Assembly: GCA_019638805.1 (NCBI GenBank)
Contig: JAHBTA010000007.1
Span: 1 to 64,000 of the forward strand
DNA: 64,000 nucleotides
Direction: 5' to 3'
Source of the DNA: Microbacteriaceae bacterium
Lineage (GTDB): Bacteria > Actinomycetota > Actinomycetes > Actinomycetales > Microbacteriaceae
The position numbers and the translations under genes are program-made. Within the stretch, counting starts at the first letter, position 1. Every line of letters starts with the position of its first letter. Positions 34,267 through 63,551 of this stretch are shown piece after piece. Below the pieces are notes generated by a model that was not told where the DNA came from, did no database searches, and saw nothing but the letters and a program-made list of their open reading frames with translations.

Positions 34267-34274
34267 TATCCTCC

Positions 34275-34472
34275 CTCTCTAATGAAAGGTGGTTGGCCCG
34301 GTGCCGACTGACAGGCTGGGAATCGGACTGCCTGGCGTGGCTCTTCCTCCCTCTGTCCCGTTCGCGGTGACTTGGTAGCGACTCGTCCGCCAGGCAGTTC
34401 GACCATGGCCCGTCCCGCTGCGATGGCTTGATAGAAGGTTGTCCGACCTGCGGGTCGTGACTCATTAGAGAG
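34275..34472 (+). ncRNA. Structured IS110 non-coding end, candidate bridge RNA (copy A)
   Basis: The 257 bp before the transposase are non-coding. CTCTCTAATGA (34275-34285) is complementary to TCATTAGAGAG (34462-34472), closing a 198-nt segment. Inside, ACTGCCTGGCG (34327-34337) pairs with CGCCAGGCAGT (34388-34398). IS110-group elements are known to carry a bridge RNA in the left non-coding end that guides target and donor choice; size, position and nested stems fit. The loops that would contact target and donor were not assigned. Confidence 0.55.
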
Positions 34473-34531
34473 CTGCCCCGCAACGATCCTCCGGGCCGTT
34501 TCCATCGGATCGATCGGAAGGATGCACCAGG

Positions 34532-35641
34532 TTGCCCATCGTTGCTGAACAGTTCTCCTTTGTCGTTGGCGTGGATACGCACGCCAGAACGCACACGTAC
34601 GTCGTCGTCGAGGCCGTCACCGGTCGGCTGATCGACTTGGAACAGTTCCCGGTGACCGCCGCGGGCATCGCCCGAGCGCTCGGCTGGATCGGCCGCCGCA
34701 CCACCGGGAGCGTCCTTGCCGCGGTCGAAGGTGTTGGCTCGTACGGGGCAGGGCTGGTCGCCGCTCTCGAGGCGGCGGCCATTCCCGTCGTGGAGGCCAA
34801 GCCGCCACGCTCGGCGGTCCGCGAGGGGCGGGATAAGTCCGATCGTCATGACGCGGAGGCGGCCGCCAGAGGCATGCTGGGTCGTGAGGTCGACAAGCTC
34901 CCTCACCCGCGTGCCGGAAAGGTTCGAAGCGCGCTGCGAGTACTGCTTGCGGCGCGGCGATCGATGGACACCCAACGCACCGCGATGCGCAACACACTCA
35001 CCGCACTGCTGCGGGTGATCGACTTGGGCGTCGACGCGCGCAAGCCGCTCACGGATCAGCAGGTATCCCTGATCGCCTCGTGGCGGTCACGGGCCAGCGA
35101 CGACATCGAGCAAGCCACAGCCAGAGCCGAGGCAGTGCGGCTTGCTCGCGACGTGCTCATCCTCACGGTCAGGATGCAGCAGAACCGGGACGCGCTCGAG
35201 ACCCACACCACCGAGCTCACGCCCACGCTGCTGCGAGCACGCGGGATTGGGCCGGTGACGGCCGCTGTGTTCCTCACCGCTTACTCGCACCCCGGCAGGG
35301 TCCGGAGCGAAGCAGCGTTCGCCGCCCTGGCCGGCGCCTCACCGCTGCAGGCCTCCAGCGGCAACACCACCCGCCACCGCCTCAACCGATCCGGCGACCG
35401 GCAACTCAACCGAGCACTGGACGTCGTGGCGCGGGTGCGTCTAGCCAAGGACCCGCAGACTCGTGCCTACCGGGAACGGCGTCTGGCCGAGGGCAAATCG
35501 ACGCGGGAGATTCGCCGCCAGCTCAAGCGCTACATCGCCCGCCAGGTCTACCGCGAACTCACCGCGGCGATGAGCGCAACCGCAGAAGGGCCTGACACCA
35601 CCACGCTCGGCACCAGCGACGCGCCAGGGGTGAAAGGCTGA
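34532..35641 (+). CDS. IS110-family transposase (DEDD recombinase), copy A
   Basis: 369 residues; start TTG 34532. The N-terminal DEDD RuvC-like domain shows FVVGVDTHARTHTYVVVEAV (D15), AAVEGVGSYGAGL and KSDRHDAEAAARGML. The C-terminal Transposase_20 domain shows TLLRARGIGPVTAAVFLTAY and AALAGASPLQASSGNTTRHR with the catalytic serine region, ending in QLNRALDVVARVRL. Length and domains are full. The long non-coding 5' end places it in the IS110 rather than IS1111 subgroup. Confidence 0.95.
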   Translation: MPIVAEQFSFVVGVDTHARTHTYVVVEAVTGRLIDLEQFPVTAAGIARALGWIGRRTTGSVLAAVEGVGSYGAGLVAALEAAAIPVVEAKPPRSAVREGRDKSDRHDAEAAARGMLGREVDKLPHPRAGKVRSALRVLLAARRSMDTQRTAMRNTLTALLRVIDLGVDARKPLTDQQVSLIASWRSRASDDIEQATARAEAVRLARDVLILTVRMQQNRDALETHTTELTPTLLRARGIGPVTAAVFLTAYSHPGRVRSEAAFAALAGASPLQASSGNTTRHRLNRSGDRQLNRALDVVARVRLAKDPQTRAYRERRLAEGKSTREIRRQLKRYIARQVYRELTAAMSATAEGPDTTTLGTSDAPGVKG

Positions 35642-35748
35642 ACGGCCAGTTGCCGGCGCAAGCAGGCTGCTCGCCATTGCGATCGTGAGTGGCACTGTCA
35701 GCGCCAACAGGGCGATCCCTGTTCCCCTGGGAGGAGCACACTTGAGGC

Positions 35749-36192
35749 ATGAAGGTGGAGATCCTGCACATCGACGATTGCCCAAACTGGGAAGAAGCCG
35801 GCCGCCGGATGACCGCCGCCCTGATCGAAACAGGACACGAAAACGTGGGCGTCACGTTCAGGCGGCTGCAGAGCTCGGAGGACGCGTCCGGAGTTCCGTT
35901 CGCTGGCTCCCCCACGATCGTGGTTGACGGTGCGGATCTTTTTCCGACGGGCACTCGGATCACCGAGCTGGCCTGCCGGGTGTATGGGACACGCGATGGT
36001 CTGGCTGGCTTGCCGACCGCTGAACAACTCGTCGACGCCCTCAATCAGCGCGGCGAGCTTGCAACGGATTGCTCCTGCTGCGGACGGTCCTACCCGCGAC
36101 GCAAGCTACACGACGTGGCAGGAACCGGAACACTCATCTGCCGCCGCTGTGGCCTGTGGATCGCGTTCAGGCGTCGCGGGGATCGACTGTGA
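35749..36192 (+). CDS. Thioredoxin-like DF-family protein with C-terminal zinc ribbon, copy A
   Basis: 147 residues from ATG 35749 (GGGAGGAG upstream). The N-terminal thioredoxin-like domain has VEILHIDDCPNWEEAGRRM and FAGSPTIVVDGADLFPTG, as in small thioredoxin-fold proteins found beside mercury and other metal-resistance genes. The C-terminal extension CSCCGRSYPRRKLHD ... CRRCGLW carries two CxxC pairs, a zinc ribbon. Lies in the metal cassette but on the opposite strand to cmtR-cadD-lspA. Probable metal- or thiol-related role. Confidence 0.7.
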   Translation: MKVEILHIDDCPNWEEAGRRMTAALIETGHENVGVTFRRLQSSEDASGVPFAGSPTIVVDGADLFPTGTRITELACRVYGTRDGLAGLPTAEQLVDALNQRGELATDCSCCGRSYPRRKLHDVAGTGTLICRRCGLWIAFRRRGDRL

Positions 36193-36244
36193 GCTGGGCC
36201 CCGGATGGGCTGCCGGCGCGATACGGTGCGGGCTCGGCCCGCGA

Positions 36245-36769
36245 TCAGTCCCTTCCTCGCGCAGGTTCTTTGCTACTGCGGGCGTGAGTAGCGAGCATGA
36301 GCGCCCACAGGGCGATCCCGCTCGTGGTGAAGATGTCGGCAACGTTGAAGGCCGCGAACCAGTCCACCGCGATGAAATCGACGACATGACCTGTCAGTGG
36401 TCCGTCTTCGGCACGACTGAAGCGATCCCAGAGGTTGCCGATTGCCCCACCCGCCGTGACGGCCAAGAAGACGGTGGCGAGGATGTCCTGGTTCCGGATG
36501 GTGCGGACGGCGACCCAGCCCACGAGGGCTAGCACAACGGCGGCCAGCGCGAACGCCAGAGGACTACCGATGTCCGCGCCCATCCCGAACGCCACGCCGG
36601 GGTTGAATGTCAGTTCGAGGCGGACTGTGGGGACGAGCTCGATGACTTGACCGTCCTCGAGCTCGTCCAACGCCCATCGTTTGGTGAGCTGGTCGAGCAC
36701 CAGGGCAGCCCCCAGTGACAAGCCCACCAGGATGATCCGGCCGATCAGTCTTCTGCTCGGAGCCCTCAC
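36245..36769 (-). CDS. lspA: Lipoprotein signal peptidase (signal peptidase II), copy A
   Basis: 174 residues, four hydrophobic helices. The catalytic Asp pair is visible: D131 in HVVDFIAVDWF and D145 in FNVADIF; GNLWDRF and LTFNPGVAFG are also conserved. It removes signal peptides from prolipoproteins. GTG 36769 overlaps the cadD stop. A second, plasmid-borne lspA linked to cadmium genes has a known parallel in Gram-positive cadmium-resistance islands (lspB of Listeria). Confidence 0.95.
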   Translation of the reverse strand: MRAPSRRLIGRIILVGLSLGAALVLDQLTKRWALDELEDGQVIELVPTVRLELTFNPGVAFGMGADIGSPLAFALAAVVLALVGWVAVRTIRNQDILATVFLAVTAGGAIGNLWDRFSRAEDGPLTGHVVDFIAVDWFAAFNVADIFTTSGIALWALMLATHARSSKEPARGRD

Positions 36770-37389
36770 GTGAGGACGCCGATGAGGCGGGGAATGACGC
36801 CCGACTCGATGAGGATGTAGAGACCGAGCCCAATGAAGACGGCCGGGACAAGCCAGTGCTCAATCTTTTCTAGCGCCTCGGTCACGCGTCGGTTGGTCCC
36901 GATCGCACGGGCCAACAGACACCAACCGGCGAGAAGAATCAGGAACACCACGATCGTCACGACGGTGTCCAACACGGGCTGCGTCCGAAACACCGGGGTG
37001 TAGAGCGAGATGTTGTCGGCCCCATTGGCGATGGTGATACCAGCCACCCCGAGGAGCCCACCTGCTCGGATGGCGCTCTCGTCATCGTCATCATCGTGGT
37101 CAGCGTTGCGGCGGCGCACCAGGAAGCGGATAAGCCCGTACACGCCGATGCCGAGCGGCAGCAGCCCGAGGAAGCCAACCCACTCATCCGGCACCAATGT
37201 CAGCCCGAGGGCGGCCACCACGCTGACCATGATCAGCGTGATCAGTCCGAGGTATTGCCCCGCAATGACTTTCCACACGGTGAGAGTGCCGCCGCGTGTG
37301 GTTGCGAGGAAGAGGATCGTCAGTACAACCAGATCGTCGATGTTGGTGCTGACGAAGAGCCCGATGGCAGCAACAACCGCGCCGATCAT
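36766..37389 (-). CDS. cadD: CadD-family cadmium resistance transporter, copy A
   Basis: 207 residues from ATG 37389, which overlaps the cmtR-like stop (ATGA). Five to six membrane helices; the N-terminus FVSTNIDDLVVLTILFLA and the mid segment GITIANGADNISLYTPVF are the CadD signatures. A His/Asp-rich cytosolic loop (RRRNADHDDDDDESA) may bind metal. CadD proteins confer cadmium resistance by efflux or sequestration. A single operon with the regulator and lspA. Confidence 0.92.
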   Translation of the reverse strand: MIGAVVAAIGLFVSTNIDDLVVLTILFLATTRGGTLTVWKVIAGQYLGLITLIMVSVVAALGLTLVPDEWVGFLGLLPLGIGVYGLIRFLVRRRNADHDDDDDESAIRAGGLLGVAGITIANGADNISLYTPVFRTQPVLDTVVTIVVFLILLAGWCLLARAIGTNRRVTEALEKIEHWLVPAVFIGLGLYILIESGVIPRLIGVLT

Positions 37390-37769
37390 GCTTTGAACTT
37401 TCCGGCGAGGGTGTTTGCGCGCACCGCGGTCGCTCGCCGTGCCTGCGACCCGTGCACGGAGCACAAGTCGACCTTGTACCCAGTGGCCTCGAGCAGCACT
37501 TCCGCCGCTTTCAAGAGATCCATCAGCTCTGGTCGTGAAAGCGCATAGAACACCTGCCGGCCGTCAACTCGCCCTTCCAGCAGGCCGCAATCCCGCAGAC
37601 ACGCCACATGCTCCGACACGGTGGATTGAGCCAGACCCAGCGTCTCCACAAGGTCCCTCACCCGAGCCTCTCCGCCCTGCAGCTGGCGGACAATCGCCAA
37701 GCGGGTCGGCTCAGCCAGCGAATGGAACAGCGAAACTGCGGCAAGACTGCTGTCAGTTTGAATCGGCAT
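37386..37769 (-). CDS. cmtR: CmtR-like ArsR-family metal sensor, copy A
   Basis: 127 residues. wHTH: SLAEPTRLAIVRQLQGGEAR, DLVETLGLAQSTVSEHVACL. C57 and C61 (VACLRDCGLL) and C103 (VDLCSVHG) reproduce the three-cysteine Cd/Pb site of mycobacterial CmtR (C57, C61, C102). It should repress the cmtR-cadD-lspA operon until Cd(II) or Pb(II) binds. The operator overlaps a TATAAT promoter right at the start codon. Confidence 0.9.
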   Translation of the reverse strand: MPIQTDSSLAAVSLFHSLAEPTRLAIVRQLQGGEARVRDLVETLGLAQSTVSEHVACLRDCGLLEGRVDGRQVFYALSRPELMDLLKAAEVLLEATGYKVDLCSVHGSQARRATAVRANTLAGKFKA

Positions 37770-37772
37770 CTA

Positions 37773-37785
37773 CCGATTATATCGG
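37773..37785 (-). promoter_or_regulatory. CmtR operator overlapping the -10 box, copy A
   Basis: CCGAT-TAT-ATCGG is a perfect inverted repeat starting 3 bp upstream of the cmtR-like ATG. On the minus strand it contains TATAAT (37777-37782) only 7 bp before the ATG, so the transcript is probably leaderless and repressor binding would block the promoter. Confidence 0.75.
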
Positions 37786-37925
37786 GACATGTCGATCAAA
37801 CTTCAAGCGCAGCGGCCAAGCGATCAGCGCGCGACGGCGACGCGGGTTTCGAGCTCCACATGAGCCACCCAAGGCTGGGGGTTTCCCGTTTCCGGCTGCG
37901 CCATCGTAGCTGCCGTCCACGGCTT

Positions 37926-37953
37926 CGCTCCGGGCTTTCGCGGCATATCCTCC
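37926..37953 (+). repeat. 28-bp GC-rich repeat at the right side of the metal cassette (copy A)
   Basis: Begins CGCTCCGGGCTTTCGCGG and ends TATCCTCC. The same 28 bases occur at 52244-52271 (left edge of copy B) and 55923-55950. The last 8 bases, TATCCTCC, also sit at 34267-34274 directly before the structured IS110 end, so they may be the IS110 target core. Confidence 0.8.
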
Positions 37954-38022
37954 TCCGCTGGCGCTCCGTCCGGTATTCCACGACCCTGCGCTACGCCGCT
38001 CCCGCCCGCTCTCGATGACACC

Positions 38023-38034
38023 GCCGAAAACGGC
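38023..38034 (+). promoter_or_regulatory. Leader-type hairpin inside copy A
   Basis: GCCG-AAAA-CGGC followed by CAAACAAATGAACAGAGATC. Same layout (small hairpin, CAAA, then purine-rich stretch) as the leaders of 56186, 59100 and 60838, but no intact gene follows. Copy B holds the same at 56020-56031. Confidence 0.5.
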
Positions 38035-38140
38035 AAACAAATGAACAGAGATCGATTGACAGCGGGACATAGAAGGGTCGCTGCGCTCAGTCCGGTATTC
38101 CACGGTCCCTACACTTCGCCACTCCCGCTCTCAATCGATC

Positions 38141-52263: not shown

Positions 52264-52271
52264 TATCCTCC

Positions 52272-52469
52272 CTCTCTAATGAAAGGTGGTTGGCCCGGTG
52301 CCGACTGACAGGCTGGGAATCGGACTGCCTGGCGTGGCTCTTCCTCCCTCTGTCCCGTTCGCGGTGACTTGGTAGCGACTCGTCCGCCAGGCAGTTCGAC
52401 CATGGCCCGTCCCGCTGCGATGGCTTGATAGAAGGTTGTCCGACCTGCGGGTCGTGACTCATTAGAGAG
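52272..52469 (+). ncRNA. Structured IS110 non-coding end, candidate bridge RNA (copy B)
   Basis: Same sequence as 34275-34472. Closing arms at 52272-52282 and 52459-52469, inner stem arms at 52324-52334 and 52385-52395. Confidence 0.55.
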
Positions 52470-52528
52470 CTGCCCCGCAACGATCCTCCGGGCCGTTTCC
52501 ATCGGATCGATCGGAAGGATGCACCAGG

Positions 52529-53638
52529 TTGCCCATCGTTGCTGAACAGTTCTCCTTTGTCGTTGGCGTGGATACGCACGCCAGAACGCACACGTACGTC
52601 GTCGTCGAGGCCGTCACCGGTCGGCTGATCGACTTGGAACAGTTCCCGGTGACCGCCGCGGGCATCGCCCGAGCGCTCGGCTGGATCGGCCGCCGCACCA
52701 CCGGGAGCGTCCTTGCCGCGGTCGAAGGTGTTGGCTCGTACGGGGCAGGGCTGGTCGCCGCTCTCGAGGCGGCGGCCATTCCCGTCGTGGAGGCCAAGCC
52801 GCCACGCTCGGCGGTCCGCGAGGGGCGGGATAAGTCCGATCGTCATGACGCGGAGGCGGCCGCCAGAGGCATGCTGGGTCGTGAGGTCGACAAGCTCCCT
52901 CACCCGCGTGCCGGAAAGGTTCGAAGCGCGCTGCGAGTACTGCTTGCGGCGCGGCGATCGATGGACACCCAACGCACCGCGATGCGCAACACACTCACCG
53001 CACTGCTGCGGGTGATCGACTTGGGCGTCGACGCGCGCAAGCCGCTCACGGATCAGCAGGTATCCCTGATCGCCTCGTGGCGGTCACGGGCCAGCGACGA
53101 CATCGAGCAAGCCACAGCCAGAGCCGAGGCAGTGCGGCTTGCTCGCGACGTGCTCATCCTCACGGTCAGGATGCAGCAGAACCGGGACGCGCTCGAGACC
53201 CACACCACCGAGCTCACGCCCACGCTGCTGCGAGCACGCGGGATTGGGCCGGTGACGGCCGCTGTGTTCCTCACCGCTTACTCGCACCCCGGCAGGGTCC
53301 GGAGCGAAGCAGCGTTCGCCGCCCTGGCCGGCGCCTCACCGCTGCAGGCCTCCAGCGGCAACACCACCCGCCACCGCCTCAACCGATCCGGCGACCGGCA
53401 ACTCAACCGAGCACTGGACGTCGTGGCGCGGGTGCGTCTAGCCAAGGACCCGCAGACTCGTGCCTACCGGGAACGGCGTCTGGCCGAGGGCAAATCGACG
53501 CGGGAGATTCGCCGCCAGCTCAAGCGCTACATCGCCCGCCAGGTCTACCGCGAACTCACCGCGGCGATGAGCGCAACCGCAGAAGGGCCTGACACCACCA
53601 CGCTCGGCACCAGCGACGCGCCAGGGGTGAAAGGCTGA
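52529..53638 (+). CDS. IS110-family transposase (DEDD recombinase), copy B
   Basis: Identical to the protein encoded at 34532-35641: TTG start, DEDD RuvC-like domain with D15, Transposase_20 domain at the C-terminus. Full length, so either copy could act on both. Confidence 0.95.
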   Translation: MPIVAEQFSFVVGVDTHARTHTYVVVEAVTGRLIDLEQFPVTAAGIARALGWIGRRTTGSVLAAVEGVGSYGAGLVAALEAAAIPVVEAKPPRSAVREGRDKSDRHDAEAAARGMLGREVDKLPHPRAGKVRSALRVLLAARRSMDTQRTAMRNTLTALLRVIDLGVDARKPLTDQQVSLIASWRSRASDDIEQATARAEAVRLARDVLILTVRMQQNRDALETHTTELTPTLLRARGIGPVTAAVFLTAYSHPGRVRSEAAFAALAGASPLQASSGNTTRHRLNRSGDRQLNRALDVVARVRLAKDPQTRAYRERRLAEGKSTREIRRQLKRYIARQVYRELTAAMSATAEGPDTTTLGTSDAPGVKG

Positions 53639-53745
53639 ACGGCCAGTTGCCGGCGCAAGCAGGCTGCTCGCCATTGCGATCGTGAGTGGCACTGTCAGCG
53701 CCAACAGGGCGATCCCTGTTCCCCTGGGAGGAGCACACTTGAGGC

Positions 53746-54189
53746 ATGAAGGTGGAGATCCTGCACATCGACGATTGCCCAAACTGGGAAGAAGCCGGCC
53801 GCCGGATGACCGCCGCCCTGATCGAAACAGGACACGAAAACGTGGGCGTCACGTTCAGGCGGCTGCAGAGCTCGGAGGACGCGTCCGGAGTTCCGTTCGC
53901 TGGCTCCCCCACGATCGTGGTTGACGGTGCGGATCTTTTTCCGACGGGCACTCGGATCACCGAGCTGGCCTGCCGGGTGTATGGGACACGCGATGGTCTG
54001 GCTGGCTTGCCGACCGCTGAACAACTCGTCGACGCCCTCAATCAGCGCGGCGAGCTTGCAACGGATTGCTCCTGCTGCGGACGGTCCTACCCGCGACGCA
54101 AGCTACACGACGTGGCAGGAACCGGAACACTCATCTGCCGCCGCTGTGGCCTGTGGATCGCGTTCAGGCGTCGCGGGGATCGACTGTGA
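53746..54189 (+). CDS. Thioredoxin-like DF-family protein with zinc ribbon, copy B
   Basis: Identical to 35749-36192: thioredoxin-like domain with HIDDCPNWEEAG, then a two-CxxC zinc ribbon. Confidence 0.7.
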   Translation: MKVEILHIDDCPNWEEAGRRMTAALIETGHENVGVTFRRLQSSEDASGVPFAGSPTIVVDGADLFPTGTRITELACRVYGTRDGLAGLPTAEQLVDALNQRGELATDCSCCGRSYPRRKLHDVAGTGTLICRRCGLWIAFRRRGDRL

Positions 54190-54241
54190 GCTGGGCCCCG
54201 GATGGGCTGCCGGCGCGATACGGTGCGGGCTCGGCCCGCGA

Positions 54242-54766
54242 TCAGTCCCTTCCTCGCGCAGGTTCTTTGCTACTGCGGGCGTGAGTAGCGAGCATGAGCG
54301 CCCACAGGGCGATCCCGCTCGTGGTGAAGATGTCGGCAACGTTGAAGGCCGCGAACCAGTCCACCGCGATGAAATCGACGACATGACCTGTCAGTGGTCC
54401 GTCTTCGGCACGACTGAAGCGATCCCAGAGGTTGCCGATTGCCCCACCCGCCGTGACGGCCAAGAAGACGGTGGCGAGGATGTCCTGGTTCCGGATGGTG
54501 CGGACGGCGACCCAGCCCACGAGGGCTAGCACAACGGCGGCCAGCGCGAACGCCAGAGGACTACCGATGTCCGCGCCCATCCCGAACGCCACGCCGGGGT
54601 TGAATGTCAGTTCGAGGCGGACTGTGGGGACGAGCTCGATGACTTGACCGTCCTCGAGCTCGTCCAACGCCCATCGTTTGGTGAGCTGGTCGAGCACCAG
54701 GGCAGCCCCCAGTGACAAGCCCACCAGGATGATCCGGCCGATCAGTCTTCTGCTCGGAGCCCTCAC
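54242..54766 (-). CDS. lspA: Lipoprotein signal peptidase, copy B
   Basis: Identical to 36245-36769, catalytic D131 and D145 kept. Third gene of the second cmtR-cadD-lspA operon. Confidence 0.95.
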   Translation of the reverse strand: MRAPSRRLIGRIILVGLSLGAALVLDQLTKRWALDELEDGQVIELVPTVRLELTFNPGVAFGMGADIGSPLAFALAAVVLALVGWVAVRTIRNQDILATVFLAVTAGGAIGNLWDRFSRAEDGPLTGHVVDFIAVDWFAAFNVADIFTTSGIALWALMLATHARSSKEPARGRD

Positions 54767-55386
54767 GTGAGGACGCCGATGAGGCGGGGAATGACGCCCG
54801 ACTCGATGAGGATGTAGAGACCGAGCCCAATGAAGACGGCCGGGACAAGCCAGTGCTCAATCTTTTCTAGCGCCTCGGTCACGCGTCGGTTGGTCCCGAT
54901 CGCACGGGCCAACAGACACCAACCGGCGAGAAGAATCAGGAACACCACGATCGTCACGACGGTGTCCAACACGGGCTGCGTCCGAAACACCGGGGTGTAG
55001 AGCGAGATGTTGTCGGCCCCATTGGCGATGGTGATACCAGCCACCCCGAGGAGCCCACCTGCTCGGATGGCGCTCTCGTCATCGTCATCATCGTGGTCAG
55101 CGTTGCGGCGGCGCACCAGGAAGCGGATAAGCCCGTACACGCCGATGCCGAGCGGCAGCAGCCCGAGGAAGCCAACCCACTCATCCGGCACCAATGTCAG
55201 CCCGAGGGCGGCCACCACGCTGACCATGATCAGCGTGATCAGTCCGAGGTATTGCCCCGCAATGACTTTCCACACGGTGAGAGTGCCGCCGCGTGTGGTT
55301 GCGAGGAAGAGGATCGTCAGTACAACCAGATCGTCGATGTTGGTGCTGACGAAGAGCCCGATGGCAGCAACAACCGCGCCGATCAT
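54763..55386 (-). CDS. cadD: CadD-family cadmium resistance transporter, copy B
   Basis: Identical to 36766-37389. Two copies would raise the dosage of cadmium resistance. Confidence 0.92.
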   Translation of the reverse strand: MIGAVVAAIGLFVSTNIDDLVVLTILFLATTRGGTLTVWKVIAGQYLGLITLIMVSVVAALGLTLVPDEWVGFLGLLPLGIGVYGLIRFLVRRRNADHDDDDDESAIRAGGLLGVAGITIANGADNISLYTPVFRTQPVLDTVVTIVVFLILLAGWCLLARAIGTNRRVTEALEKIEHWLVPAVFIGLGLYILIESGVIPRLIGVLT

Positions 55387-55766
55387 GCTTTGAACTTTCC
55401 GGCGAGGGTGTTTGCGCGCACCGCGGTCGCTCGCCGTGCCTGCGACCCGTGCACGGAGCACAAGTCGACCTTGTACCCAGTGGCCTCGAGCAGCACTTCC
55501 GCCGCTTTCAAGAGATCCATCAGCTCTGGTCGTGAAAGCGCATAGAACACCTGCCGGCCGTCAACTCGCCCTTCCAGCAGGCCGCAATCCCGCAGACACG
55601 CCACATGCTCCGACACGGTGGATTGAGCCAGACCCAGCGTCTCCACAAGGTCCCTCACCCGAGCCTCTCCGCCCTGCAGCTGGCGGACAATCGCCAAGCG
55701 GGTCGGCTCAGCCAGCGAATGGAACAGCGAAACTGCGGCAAGACTGCTGTCAGTTTGAATCGGCAT
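55383..55766 (-). CDS. cmtR: CmtR-like ArsR-family metal sensor, copy B
   Basis: Identical to 37386-37769, with C57, C61 and C103. Can cross-regulate both operons because the operators are identical. Confidence 0.9.
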   Translation of the reverse strand: MPIQTDSSLAAVSLFHSLAEPTRLAIVRQLQGGEARVRDLVETLGLAQSTVSEHVACLRDCGLLEGRVDGRQVFYALSRPELMDLLKAAEVLLEATGYKVDLCSVHGSQARRATAVRANTLAGKFKA

Positions 55767-55769
55767 CTA

Positions 55770-55782
55770 CCGATTATATCGG
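55770..55782 (-). promoter_or_regulatory. CmtR operator overlapping the -10 box, copy B
   Basis: Same CCGAT-TAT-ATCGG site as at 37773-37785, directly before the ATG at 55766. Confidence 0.75.
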
Positions 55783-55922
55783 GACATGTCGATCAAACTT
55801 CAAGCGCAGCGGCCAAGCGATCAGCGCGCGACGGCGACGCGGGTTTCGAGCTCCACATGAGCCACCCAAGGCTGGGGGTTTCCCGTTTCCGGCTGCGCCA
55901 TCGTAGCTGCCGTCCACGGCTT

Positions 55923-55950
55923 CGCTCCGGGCTTTCGCGGCATATCCTCC
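55923..55950 (+). repeat. 28-bp GC-rich repeat at the right side of the metal cassette (copy B)
   Basis: Same bases as 52244-52271 and 37926-37953. In copy B the pair at 52244 and 55923 brackets the IS110-metal unit exactly as direct repeats. Confidence 0.8.
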
Positions 55951-56140
55951 TCCGCTGGCGCTCCGTCCGGTATTCCACGACCCTGCGCTACGCCGCTCCC
56001 GCCCGCTCTCGATGACACCGCCGAAAACGGCAAACAAATGAACAGAGATCGATTGACAGCGGGACATAGAAGGGTCGCTGCGCTCAGTCCGGTACCGCCT
56101 TCGCTCGGCGCTCCGCACCGTCCACTCCCCCTCGATCAAC

Positions 56141-58865: not shown

Positions 58866-58978
58866 AACTGCTACCCAAAGCGGTGCCGGCATTCGCCGGC
58901 GCTGTGCTGGATGCCTTCACACCCTCCCGGCCGGCCGAGCGTATCTCCCTGCGTCGCTGCCGTGCTCGTCGCTCGCTA

Positions 58979-59099
58979 TTTCCAGACTCCGGCTGCGCCT
59001 CCGCTTAGGAACCGCTCGCTCCGGCACTCACGCGCCTCCGGTCGAACCGCTGACCTTTGCCCGGGAGGGCGCGAAGAACGGTCAACGAAGGAGAGAGCA
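58979..59099 (+). promoter_or_regulatory. Leader element of the DUF3846 gene, with 42-bp block shared with ssb
   Basis: 58979-59020 is identical to 60713-60754 (42 bp, starts TTTCCAGACTCCGGCTGC). After it: hairpin GCCC-GGGA-GGGC (59059-59070), GCGAAGAACGGTCAACGAAG, GAGAGAGCA and ATG. Confidence 0.75.
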
Positions 59100-59528
59100 A
59101 TGACCAAGACCATCATCGGGATGCGGCTCGGCGGGGGCGTGGCAGAGCGCGTCGCGCTCGACGCCCTGAACCTGGGAGACAGCATCCGGCGCGAGATCGA
59201 CTGCCGCAGCTTCGACGTCGTGGGGCTCCGCGGCCACCTCGACCTGTTCGTCGACGACGAGGGCGCGATCAACGGATCAGAGCTGAACCTGCCGCTGACC
59301 AAGACCGCCCACATGCTCGGCACCCCGACCGTGCTGTACGGCGCGGGAGTGTTCGTCGGCATCGACAAGACGGACGGATCGAGCGTCAGCCTCACGGAGA
59401 CGCAGTTCGCGATCCTCCGCGACGCGATGCAGACCCGCCCCAGCTTCGAGCTGCTCAACAAGCTCGCTGCCAGCCTCGCCCCGCTCGGCGCGGCACTCGA
59501 CCGCAGCCTCACCACCCACCTGGCCTGA
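59100..59528 (+). CDS. DUF3846-like protein
   Basis: 142 residues from ATG 59100. DCRSFDVVGLRGHLDLFVDD, EGAINGSELNLPLTKTAHML, LYGAGVFVG and LTETQFAILRDAM follow the DUF3846 pattern (vDc....v.L...idl.vDdEg..ng...N..a.........lyG..v..G). Found mainly on plasmids and phages, function unknown. Its leader is nearly that of ssb. Confidence 0.75.
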   Translation: MTKTIIGMRLGGGVAERVALDALNLGDSIRREIDCRSFDVVGLRGHLDLFVDDEGAINGSELNLPLTKTAHMLGTPTVLYGAGVFVGIDKTDGSSVSLTETQFAILRDAMQTRPSFELLNKLAASLAPLGAALDRSLTTHLA

Positions 59529-59552
59529 GCGCCACCACCGAAGGAGAGAGCA

Positions 59553-59945
59553 ATGACCGAAGTGATCGGAGCCGTGCAGCAGAAGGTGCACGAGGCGAAC
59601 GAAGCCCTCGCGGACCTCCGCAGCGCGCGCGAGACCTACAGCGCCGTGCCGGAGGCGAAGCAGACCACCCGCGACTACGAGGACTACGAGGACGCCATGC
59701 TGGCCGCCGTCGAGCCGCTCGAGAGCGTGGTCGACGCCTTCCTCCCCATCGTCACCGCGGCCGAGGCCCTCGCAGCGCTGCACCCCGACGTCTGGCGGGA
59801 CACCGCCACGTCGTTCGGCTGCACCGAGGCCGAGGCGATCGCCGGACTGCTCGATGCGGCGGGAGCCACCGGGGTCGCCCGGATGTTCCTCGAGGCGCAC
59901 GCCGAAGGCGACGAGGACGGCGACGAGCACTACCAGGGAGCGTGA
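59553..59945 (+). CDS. Acidic hypothetical protein (130 aa)
   Basis: Start ATG 59553, preceded by CCGAAGGAGAGAGCA, the same ribosome site as the previous gene. Highly acidic and helical (EAKQTTRDYEDYEDAMLAAV; LEAHAEGDEDGDEHYQGA). No domain recognised. Small acidic plasmid proteins can act as DNA mimics (anti-restriction), but nothing specific supports that here. Confidence 0.7.
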   Translation: MTEVIGAVQQKVHEANEALADLRSARETYSAVPEAKQTTRDYEDYEDAMLAAVEPLESVVDAFLPIVTAAEALAALHPDVWRDTATSFGCTEAEAIAGLLDAAGATGVARMFLEAHAEGDEDGDEHYQGA

Positions 59946-59952
59946 GCTCCGC

Positions 59953-59979
59953 GGCGGCCGCCCATCGCGGGCGGCCGCC
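59953..59979 (+). terminator. 11-bp GC hairpin after the acidic gene
   Basis: GGCGGCCGCCC, loop ATCGC, GGGCGGCCGCC, seven bases beyond the stop. Confidence 0.75.
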
Positions 59980-60012
59980 ACTCCCCCACCACCATCAGGA
60001 AGGACACCACCC

Positions 60013-60261
60013 ATGAGCACCACCCACACCTTCGGACACGTCGGGTTCACCTTCGGGAAGAACCCCGACCGGCCCGTCATCCTCACCGTCCGCCGTCACG
60101 ACGACTCCTCCGCCGAGGCGGAGTTGACGCTGGACGAGCTGCGCCAGATCAAGCACGCGATCAACCAGCTCGACCTGGACACGTCGGCAGGCGTGCAGCA
60201 CTACATCGACACCGGCATCCCGCTCGACGTCGACGGCGAGCCCGCCTTCAAGGCGGTGTGA
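60013..60261 (+). CDS. Small hypothetical protein (82 aa)
   Basis: ATG 60013 after AGGAAGGA. GHVGFTFGKNPDRPVILTVR, EAELTLDELRQIKHAINQLD: beta strands then a helix. No family recognised. The next gene starts 4 bp after its stop. Confidence 0.65.
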   Translation: MSTTHTFGHVGFTFGKNPDRPVILTVRRHDDSSAEAELTLDELRQIKHAINQLDLDTSAGVQHYIDTGIPLDVDGEPAFKAV

Positions 60262-60264
60262 CCC

Positions 60265-60444
60265 GTGGCCACATACAGCGAGGGGTTCGCCCGGCTGCTC
60301 AACGACGTCGAGGATGCGCTGCGCGAGACCACCTACGACATCGAGCACGCCGAAGATCCCGACGTGGAACTCGACGAGGAGACGTTCGTCGACCAGCTCG
60401 AGGACGCCGTGAGCACCATCCAGAGGTTGCTGGCCGAGAGGTAG
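60265..60444 (+). CDS. Small acidic hypothetical protein (59 aa)
   Basis: GTG 60265 to TAG 60444, four bases after the preceding stop. The product MATYSEGFARLLNDVEDALR, then EHAEDPDVELDEETFVDQLE and TIQRLLAER is acidic and amphipathic-helical, with good coding bias. Probably co-expressed with the preceding gene; function unknown. Confidence 0.6.
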   Translation: MATYSEGFARLLNDVEDALRETTYDIEHAEDPDVELDEETFVDQLEDAVSTIQRLLAER

Positions 60445-60712
60445 TGCCCCATCGACGGAGCCTGCGCTCCGCGGCGGCCGCCCCCAGTGGGCGGTCGCCG
60501 GCGAGGGGGGACGAAGCCCCCTCGCGCTCCCCCACACCTCGAGGCCGACGCACGAGCGCCGACCGGCGCCGGCGACGGAGGCCGGCGCGAACTACCCCAG
60601 GCGGTCCCGGCGCACGCGCCGGACTGTGCCCCTGGATTTGTGCCCCTGGATTTGTGCCCCTTCCGGCCGGTTCACCGTATCTCCCTCCGGCGCTGACGTT
60701 CGCGGCTCGCTG
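60445..60712 (+). other. GC-rich intergenic region with short repeats
   Basis: Contains the 26-bp repeat (60563-60588, shared with 58840-58865), and two tandem copies of TGCCCCTGGATTTG (60628-60655) plus a partial third. No gene. Confidence 0.6.
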
Positions 60713-60837
60713 TTTCCAGACTCCGGCTGCGCCTCCGCTTAGGAACCGCTCGCTGACCGCGCACTCTCGCGCCTCCGGTCGCCTCGATTCCCCTTGCCCG
60801 GAAGGGGCAGCAAATGGTCGATCTGAAGGAGAGAGAC
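60713..60837 (+). promoter_or_regulatory. Leader element of ssb
   Basis: The 42-bp block shared with 58979-59020, then hairpin TGCCC-GGAAG-GGGCA (60795-60809), GCAAATGGTCGATCTGAAGG, AGAGAGAC and ATG. Confidence 0.75.
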
Positions 60838-61230
60838 ATGACCGACACCATCACCATCACCGGACTCGTCGCCACGGAGCCGCGCTTCCTCATCACGAGC
60901 GACGGCCTGCCGATCGCGTCGTTCCGGCTGGCCAGCACGCAGCGCACGTTCGACCGCGAGAGCGGCGAGTGGCGCGAGGGCGACACCAACTGGTACACGA
61001 TCACGGCGTTCCGGTCCCTCGCCTCGAACGTGAACGTCAGCGTCGAGAAGGGGCAGCGGGTCGTCATCGCCGGCCGCCTGCGCATCCGCGACTGGACCTC
61101 GGGCGAGAAGGCCGGGACGACCGTCGAGATCGACGCGGACGCGATCGGCCACGACCTGAACTGGGGCACCGCGGAGTTCACCCGCACCCCGGCCCGGTCC
61201 GCCGAGACCGCGGAGGCGGTCGCCCAGTAG
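60838..61230 (+). CDS. ssb: Single-stranded DNA-binding protein
   Basis: 130 residues from ATG 60838. OB-fold with ITITGLVATEPRFLITSDGL, PIASFRLASTQRTFD, GDTNWYTITAFRSLASNVNV and KGQRVVIAGRLRIRDW. The acidic C-terminal tip found in housekeeping SSB is absent (ends AETAEAVAQ), as in many plasmid SSBs. Plasmid ssb genes protect incoming single-stranded DNA after conjugation. Confidence 0.93.
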   Translation: MTDTITITGLVATEPRFLITSDGLPIASFRLASTQRTFDRESGEWREGDTNWYTITAFRSLASNVNVSVEKGQRVVIAGRLRIRDWTSGEKAGTTVEIDADAIGHDLNWGTAEFTRTPARSAETAEAVAQ

Positions 61231-62865: not shown

Positions 62866-63551
62866 GCAACGCATCCGAGCCGACCCGGGATATTCGCGGA
62901 ATCAGCGCGCTGGCGCGGATGACCCGCCCCGCGGCCGCTCCGACGCCCACGCCGGCATCCGTCGAGCCGGTCGCCGTACCGGCGCCGGTCCAGCCGGAGC
63001 CGAAGGTGGAGGCGGCGCCCACGCCGGCTCCCGAGGCTCGCCCAAAGGCGAGCAAGCCCCCAGTGCGCCCGAGCGCGGCGTCGAGCGGCAAGAAGGCGCT
63101 CTCGACCCGCGTGCGCCGCGACGTGGGGGAGCGCGCACGCGCCGCGTTCCTGTTCGCCGGCCACCTCGAGGGCGCGACGTCGTTCTCCGCGTTCGTCGAG
63201 GACTCGCTGCTGCGCGAGGCGCAGCGCTACGAGAAGCGCCACAACGACGGTGAGCCGTTCGGCGCCGGCGTGGTCGCCGGTCGCCTTCCCGCGGCTTCAC
63301 CCGCGCCGGTCGTCGCAGGCGACAGCCCGAAGGAGGACCTGGGCACCCGGATCTCCGCCGGCGTGAGCGATCGCGCACGCGCCGCGTTCCGCTTCGCCGG
63401 GATGCTCGAGGGCGTCGCGTCGTTCTCGGAGTTCGTCGAGAAGGCGCTCGACCGCGAGGCCGAGCGCTACGAGAAGCGCCACAACGGTGGCGAACCCTTC
63501 GAGATGGGGGCCGGTGGTCGACTCCCTGCGGGACGACCGCTTCGGCGCTGA
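62862..63551 (+). CDS. Partition partner with duplicated RHH-like domain
   Basis: 229 residues from ATG 62862. Disordered Ala/Pro N-terminus, then two copies of the same ~60-residue unit. Unit 1: LSTRVRRDVGERARAAFLFA, SFSAFVEDSLLREAQRYEKR. Unit 2: LGTRISAGVSDRARAAFRFA, SFSEFVEKALDREAERYEKR. Each has a strand followed by two helices, as in RHH DNA-binding proteins, so the duplication would give a covalent pseudo-dimer. It should bind the centromere repeats at 61611-61890 and stimulate ParA. Confidence 0.85.
   Translation: MSNASEPTRDIRGISALARMTRPAAAPTPTPASVEPVAVPAPVQPEPKVEAAPTPAPEARPKASKPPVRPSAASSGKKALSTRVRRDVGERARAAFLFAGHLEGATSFSAFVEDSLLREAQRYEKRHNDGEPFGAGVVAGRLPAASPAPVVAGDSPKEDLGTRISAGVSDRARAAFRFAGMLEGVASFSEFVEKALDREAERYEKRHNGGEPFEMGAGGRLPAGRPLRR

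Follow-up and report, generated by a model that had tools for sequence, protein, structure and literature searches.

A predicted IS110-group bridge RNA at the left end of a cargo-bearing actinobacterial element located in a plasmid hairpin

Sequence analysis of the 198-nt region 34275-34472 identified it with high confidence as the left end (LE) of an IS110-group element that would encode a bridge RNA. Positions refer to the window, the whole stretch of 64,000 nucleotides that was analysed, and features lie on the + strand unless stated otherwise. At a probability of roughly 0.93, positions 34289-34502 constitute an IS110-group bridge RNA whose guides would read the halves of a hairpin together with the element ends, and with which the recombinase would insert the whole 3.8-kb element. 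The RNA is of a known kind, and the natural cargo on a bridge-RNA-guided element is the less expected finding. Bridge RNAs are under development as programmable DNA insertion tools. The window element is a new ortholog with clean guides, and with its 2.4 kb of cargo in two identical copies in one replicon it represents a natural element that has moved a payload without engineering.

Nested stems and consensus structure

The two nested stems that the initial annotation had placed ahead of the IS110-family transposase reading frame (34532-35641) were both recovered. The outer stem is a perfect 11-bp pairing of CTCTCTAATGA (34275-34285) with TCATTAGAGAG (34462-34472) and the inner stem a perfect 11-bp pairing of ACTGCCTGGCG (34327-34337) with CGCCAGGCAGT (34388-34398). 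These were the only perfect 11-bp stems within 34267-34531. Upon dinucleotide shuffling (n = 5,000) any perfect 11-bp stem was observed in 45 shuffles and two nested stems in none. Both stems are carried, as had been claimed, by each copy of a 100% identical repeat of 3,831 bp (34267-38097 and 52264-56094) that extends beyond the end originally noted.

To derive a consensus structure, 31 elements were aligned with 34289 as the starting point. The alignment resulted in a 5' stem-loop (34291-34309, consensus helices 1-2), a target-binding loop (34320-34404, helices 4-7) that contains the inner stem and a donor-binding loop (34417-34484, helices 8-9). Alignment and fold together delimit the RNA region to 34289-34502, with the 5' end predicted near 34289-34291. 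Across the 31 elements 92.8% of the consensus pair cells were paired compared to 36-47% with partners slid, and changes on both sides of the pair, as looked for in the covariance check that had been proposed over related IS110 elements, were observed in 37 of the 50 consensus pairs. These measures of structure and covariation were reached in 0 of 500 shuffles. A covariance model built from 22 relatives, with the window left out, matched both copies (34317-34482 in the first) at 121 bits and an E-value of 3.6e-30, the next best match in the window scoring 6.8 bits. A search of the genome with this model returned nothing else convincing besides the two copies, and Rfam at gathering score gave no match in the window. 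The proposal of a bridge RNA is thus supported by the LE location, the covarying consensus structure, the match to a window-free covariance model and the co-change of guides with target and donor DNA described below. In the two-stem drawing the inner stem stands as part of the stem of the target-binding loop; for the outer "closing stem", complementarity between guide and DNA is the better interpretation.

Guides, core and the outer pairing

Matches between the loops and the DNA at the element boundaries had been predicted and were found. The inner loop holds TCCTCCCTCT, equal to the left flank and core, and the second loop holds ATAGAAGG, equal to the right element end. The left target guide, LTG (CCTCCCTCT, 34346-34354), is identical at 9/9 positions to the left target and core that it reads (34270-34278), the left donor guide, LDG (34431-34438), is identical at 8/8 positions to the right end (RE) at 38069-38076, and the right donor guide, RDG, is complementary at 7/7 positions to the LE start, and to the core in addition. 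The right target guide, RTG (TAGCGAC, 34376-34382), pairs, with a G wobble, with the right junction G38077, T38078, C38079 and the G, C and T that follow. The right target, CGCTGCGCTCAGTCCGGTA (38079-38097), is half of a dispersed hairpin.

The relationship between guides and targets was evaluated further across the clade. LTG positions 1-7 matched their own left target at 6.33/7 and swapped targets at 2.82 (24 elements with distinct guides), RTG positions 11-15 matched their own right target at 4.22/5 compared to 1.41 when swapped (23 elements), and the handshake guide matched left-target positions 6-7 at 1.71/2 against 0.58. For each of the three, the own-pair match was unreached in 20,000 permutations that re-paired the elements. 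Two exceptions were observed, as RTG of relative L034 fits its own right flank poorly and the LTG match of L063 is poor.

In the proposed mechanism, LTG and RTG of the target-binding loop would pair with the two halves of the plasmid hairpin (TATCCTCCCT[CT] / CGCTGCGCTCAGTCCGGTA), and in the donor-binding loop LDG would match the right end while RDG and the handshake guide would match the left end and the target bases adjacent to the core. An excision circle would join TTGACA of RE (38056) and TCTAAT of LE (34278) at a spacing of 16 bp, creating a promoter from which the RNA may be transcribed. The recombinase (34532-35641), in a putative RNP with the bridge RNA, would then insert the 3.8-kb element with its cargo into another hairpin, and may still do so at present.

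The arms of the outer stem coincide with these guide and DNA segments. From its outer end inwards, the 5' arm (34275-34285) covers 2 nt of flanking target, then the core and then the first 7 nt of LE, so that the element boundary cuts through it; the 7 nt are the right-donor DNA CTAATGA (34279-34285), the LE start, which is complementary to RDG at 34462-34468 and covaries with it in relatives. The 3' arm (34462-34472) comprises RDG (TCATTAG), a core-pairing AG and the handshake guide AG, which pairs with two target bases beside the core. The outer stem is therefore most likely RDG and handshake guide in the RNA matching left end, core and 2-nt flank in the DNA, with no RNA helix formed. A -10-like box, TCTAAT (34278-34283), lies 16 bp from TTGACA in the inferred circle. 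From this spacing the RNA should start near 34290, past the 5' arm, which suggests that the arm is DNA that is read by the RNA rather than part of the RNA. A sigma-70-like promoter at the RE-LE junction is accordingly present as a sequence match (TTGACA, 16 bp, TCTAAT); within the clade the -10 box is good in part of the elements only and poor in others.

A bridge RNA that is closed by the outer 11-bp pairing as a true RNA helix would account for the same arms, and this was considered improbable, at about one chance in ten. Its pairing is kept through compensatory changes in relatives, and the fold of 34275-34472, which includes both arms, is stable at z = -5.1 compared to z = -2.3 for 34289-34502. 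The 5' arm however sits on the element end, with CTAATGA as LE start, CT as core and the outermost CT as target flank, and it overlaps the -10 box and so lies upstream of the predicted start. A helix cannot explain why the handshake guide fully matches the 2-nt target flank in the majority of the 24 elements, and complementarity of RDG with LE is required anyway under the model for IS621, in which LDG and RDG pair with the donor and the handshake guides with target positions 6-7 (PMC11208158).

The cores in the window are CT on the left (34277-34278) and GT on the right (38077-38078), and across the clade the junction cores likewise differ, left CT versus right GT, AT or TT. The core T is present at both junctions in all relatives listed, the search patterns having required T. 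The RTG base facing core position 8 is complementary to the base at the right junction (G, A or T) in 22 of the 23 elements, and none of the 23 has a G there, which would be the complement of the C at the left junction. Should the base at the right junction be the donor's, the RNA would be written to favour the recombined product, and the clade would lend natural support to a product-state (handshake-like) pairing of the core. At the left junction (34267-34285, CTCTCT) the register given by the guides and that of native target sites differ by 2 nt. Native hairpins in the window genome and in other genomes read TATCCTCCCTCGCTGCG, a sequence consistent with a core at 34275-34276, whereas 34277-34278 is favoured by the registers of guides, handshake and promoter alike. 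The identification of the bridge RNA is unaffected by this ambiguity.

Element ends, copies and cargo

The element is not 1.4 kb long. Guide register, RE motif and the presence of two copies with different flanks instead place copy A at 34277-38078, a length of 3,802 bp including the left core CT and the right core GT and a cargo that had been missed. Copy B (52274-56075) is 100% identical to it. Identity between the copies ends 8-10 bp beyond LE and 19 bp beyond RE, past which the outer flanks differ, and both copies lie inside one conserved dispersed plasmid hairpin. The right end (38056-38078) consists of the -35-like TTGACA, the left donor ATAGAAGG and the core GT. Its motif, TTGACA-N7-ATAGAAGG-GT, has a single occurrence, at 38056, in the interval from 35.4 to 39.5 kb, and an equivalent is present in nearly all relatives. 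Transposase relatives start at LE with CTAATG or GTGAG/GTAAG and end at RE with TTGACA, which a short spacer separates from ATAGAAG[ACG] and a T-containing core. Two relatives, G651 and G635, are present in multiple copies, among which the base preceding the left CT differs, indicating that the element starts at or after CT. An empty site was searched for with TATCCTCCCTCTCGCTGCG in 59 relatives and viral contigs and was not found. Comparison of the joined flanks of both copies to plasmids returned hairpin homologues and no orthologous empty site, and a search for the native site of the four-copy G651 element found none.

The 3.8-kb repeat could also be a segmental duplication that arose by recombination between hairpin repeats, the real insertion sequence being 1.4 kb and lying beside unrelated cad genes. 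The target hairpin occurs many times in the genome, the unit itself contains a further copy towards the right end (37885-38020), and most relatives are about 1.31-1.49 kb in length. This explanation was nevertheless considered quite unlikely, as no other RE motif is present between the transposase and 38056, RE, LDG and RTG concur on an end at 38078, and the flanks shared by the copies (8-10 bp and 19 bp) are too short as arms for homologous recombination. Relative L034 likewise has cargo (Cation_efflux and ArsR) between transposase and RE.

The recombinase (34532-35641, 369 aa, TTG start) is composed of a DEDD RuvC-like domain (PF01548) and a serine-bearing Transposase_20 domain (PF02371); it matches NF033542 at 152.9 bits against a cut-off of 140, and also IS621 (PDB 8wt6). 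The position of the structure just upstream of this reading frame would suit a mere cis-acting leader of the transposase mRNA (attenuator or translation control), which is very improbable given that a leader leaves covariation with DNA outside the element unexplained, that this same covariation of the guides tells a bridge RNA apart from an ordinary leader, and that a terminator-like site was looked for and none found.

Four cargo reading frames (35749-37769) lie between the transposase and RE, and the element is accordingly larger than a minimal insertion sequence. The first (35749-36192, 147 aa) encodes a DF-family (seleno)protein-like product (NF049942, 58.6 bits, below the cut-off of 70). 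It is followed on the - strand by an LspA-like signal peptidase II (36245-36769, PF01252), a CadD-family cadmium resistance transporter (36766-37464, PF03596, with TIGR00779 below its cut-off) and an ArsR/SmtB metalloregulator (37386-37769, PF01022, with NF033788 above cut-off). Other plasmids of Actinobacteria carry a cadD-lspA-arsR cluster that is about 67% identical, the match stopping short of the insertion sequence. The cargo of L034 is part of an independent 2.7-kb IS110 element (L034:1224-3969). Three other relatives (L066, L027 and L028, at 2.8, 1.95 and 1.8 kb) are above the clade norm in length and have small unannotated reading frames between the transposase and the right end. Cargo seems to recur in the clade, in a small number of elements. 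In open-access titles and abstracts, no natural IS110 element bearing passenger genes was recognised.

The target hairpin and known systems

The flanks of the element each correspond to one half of a single dispersed hairpin, ...GGCTTTCGCGGCATATCCTCC[loop]GTCCGGTATTCCACG..., and about a dozen hairpin-like places are present in the window genome. The hairpin, conserved and imperfect (GGCTTTCGCGGCATATCCTC...GGTATTCCACG), carries no annotation, and a permissive Rfam scan of it gave chance-level matches only. Plasmid records with the hairpin numbered 251 and came from hosts as different as Actinobacteria, Burkholderia, Pseudomonas and Escherichia. Among actinobacterial genomes and plasmids the hairpin is often located upstream of SSB, ParB, DprA-like or ArdC-like genes, and in two enterobacterial plasmids upstream of a MobV relaxase region. 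Gene sets of this kind mark plasmid leading regions (PMC11541004), and on account of this neighbourhood a role like that of the single-strand promoters Frpo/ssi is possible for the hairpin, which may thus be a leading-region single-strand element. An ordinary double-strand promoter was rejected by eye, as no consistent -35/-10 was seen. Three relatives with other guides (L036, L041 and L034) are nonetheless located within this hairpin or right next to it (the targets being CGTGGAATACC, GGTATTCCAC and, about 100 nt downstream, a further site). A relaxase is encoded on the window contig and on another hairpin-bearing contig (C10). In the former, which is 88 kb long, the relaxase gene is at 71579-71872, outside the window, and this gene makes it probable that the contig represents a mobilizable plasmid or an integrated element.

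Comparison to IS621 of E. coli (PMC11208160, PMC11208158, PDB 8wt6) revealed a shared architecture. In both elements the RNA lies in LE and has LTG, RTG, LDG, RDG and handshake guides, the target core is CT, and the target is a repeated palindrome (REP in IS621, the plasmid hairpin here). The promoter of IS621 spans the RE-LE junction (PMC11208160), as that of the window element would, judging by its motifs. Recombinase domains, LE non-coding RNA, target and donor guide pairs, junction promoter and CT-type core together correspond to the IS110 group (IS621-like). The recombinases, however, are only distantly similar (phmmer 43 bits), RDG of the window element is longer and contiguous, and the right-junction core, CT in IS621, is GT, AT or TT here, with RTG tracking that base. 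The window element further differs from IS621 in its 2.4 kb of cargo. The seekRNA of IS1111/IS110 elements (PMC11187229) is alike in being a non-coding RNA upstream of tnp (IS110 type) that matches both target strands; the cargo moved experimentally in that study was engineered whereas that of the window element is natural. Elements of the IS1111 group have the non-coding RNA in a long RE, in contrast to the LE location here. Uncharacterised actinobacterial IS110 elements (Curtobacterium, Frondihabitans, Kocuria, Rhodococcus and relatives) encode recombinases about 44-65% identical to that of the window. Those examined have the RNA architecture and RE motif in common with the window element but have their own guides and targets, and most are without cargo.

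It is conceivable, though somewhat short of an even chance, that IS110 transposons which are guided by a bridge RNA and carry cargo form a naturally recurring class in Actinobacteria, by which metal-resistance genes are moved from one conserved hairpin to another in plasmid leading regions, with several elements of the clade separately programmed for the same hairpin. The window element suggests a possible route by which metal-resistance genes reach a conserved plasmid site, and the combination of natural cargo and plasmid-hairpin targeting provides parts worth following. Diverged direct repeats of about 75-82% identity were also observed elsewhere in the window, at 63090-63501 and 58922-60853.
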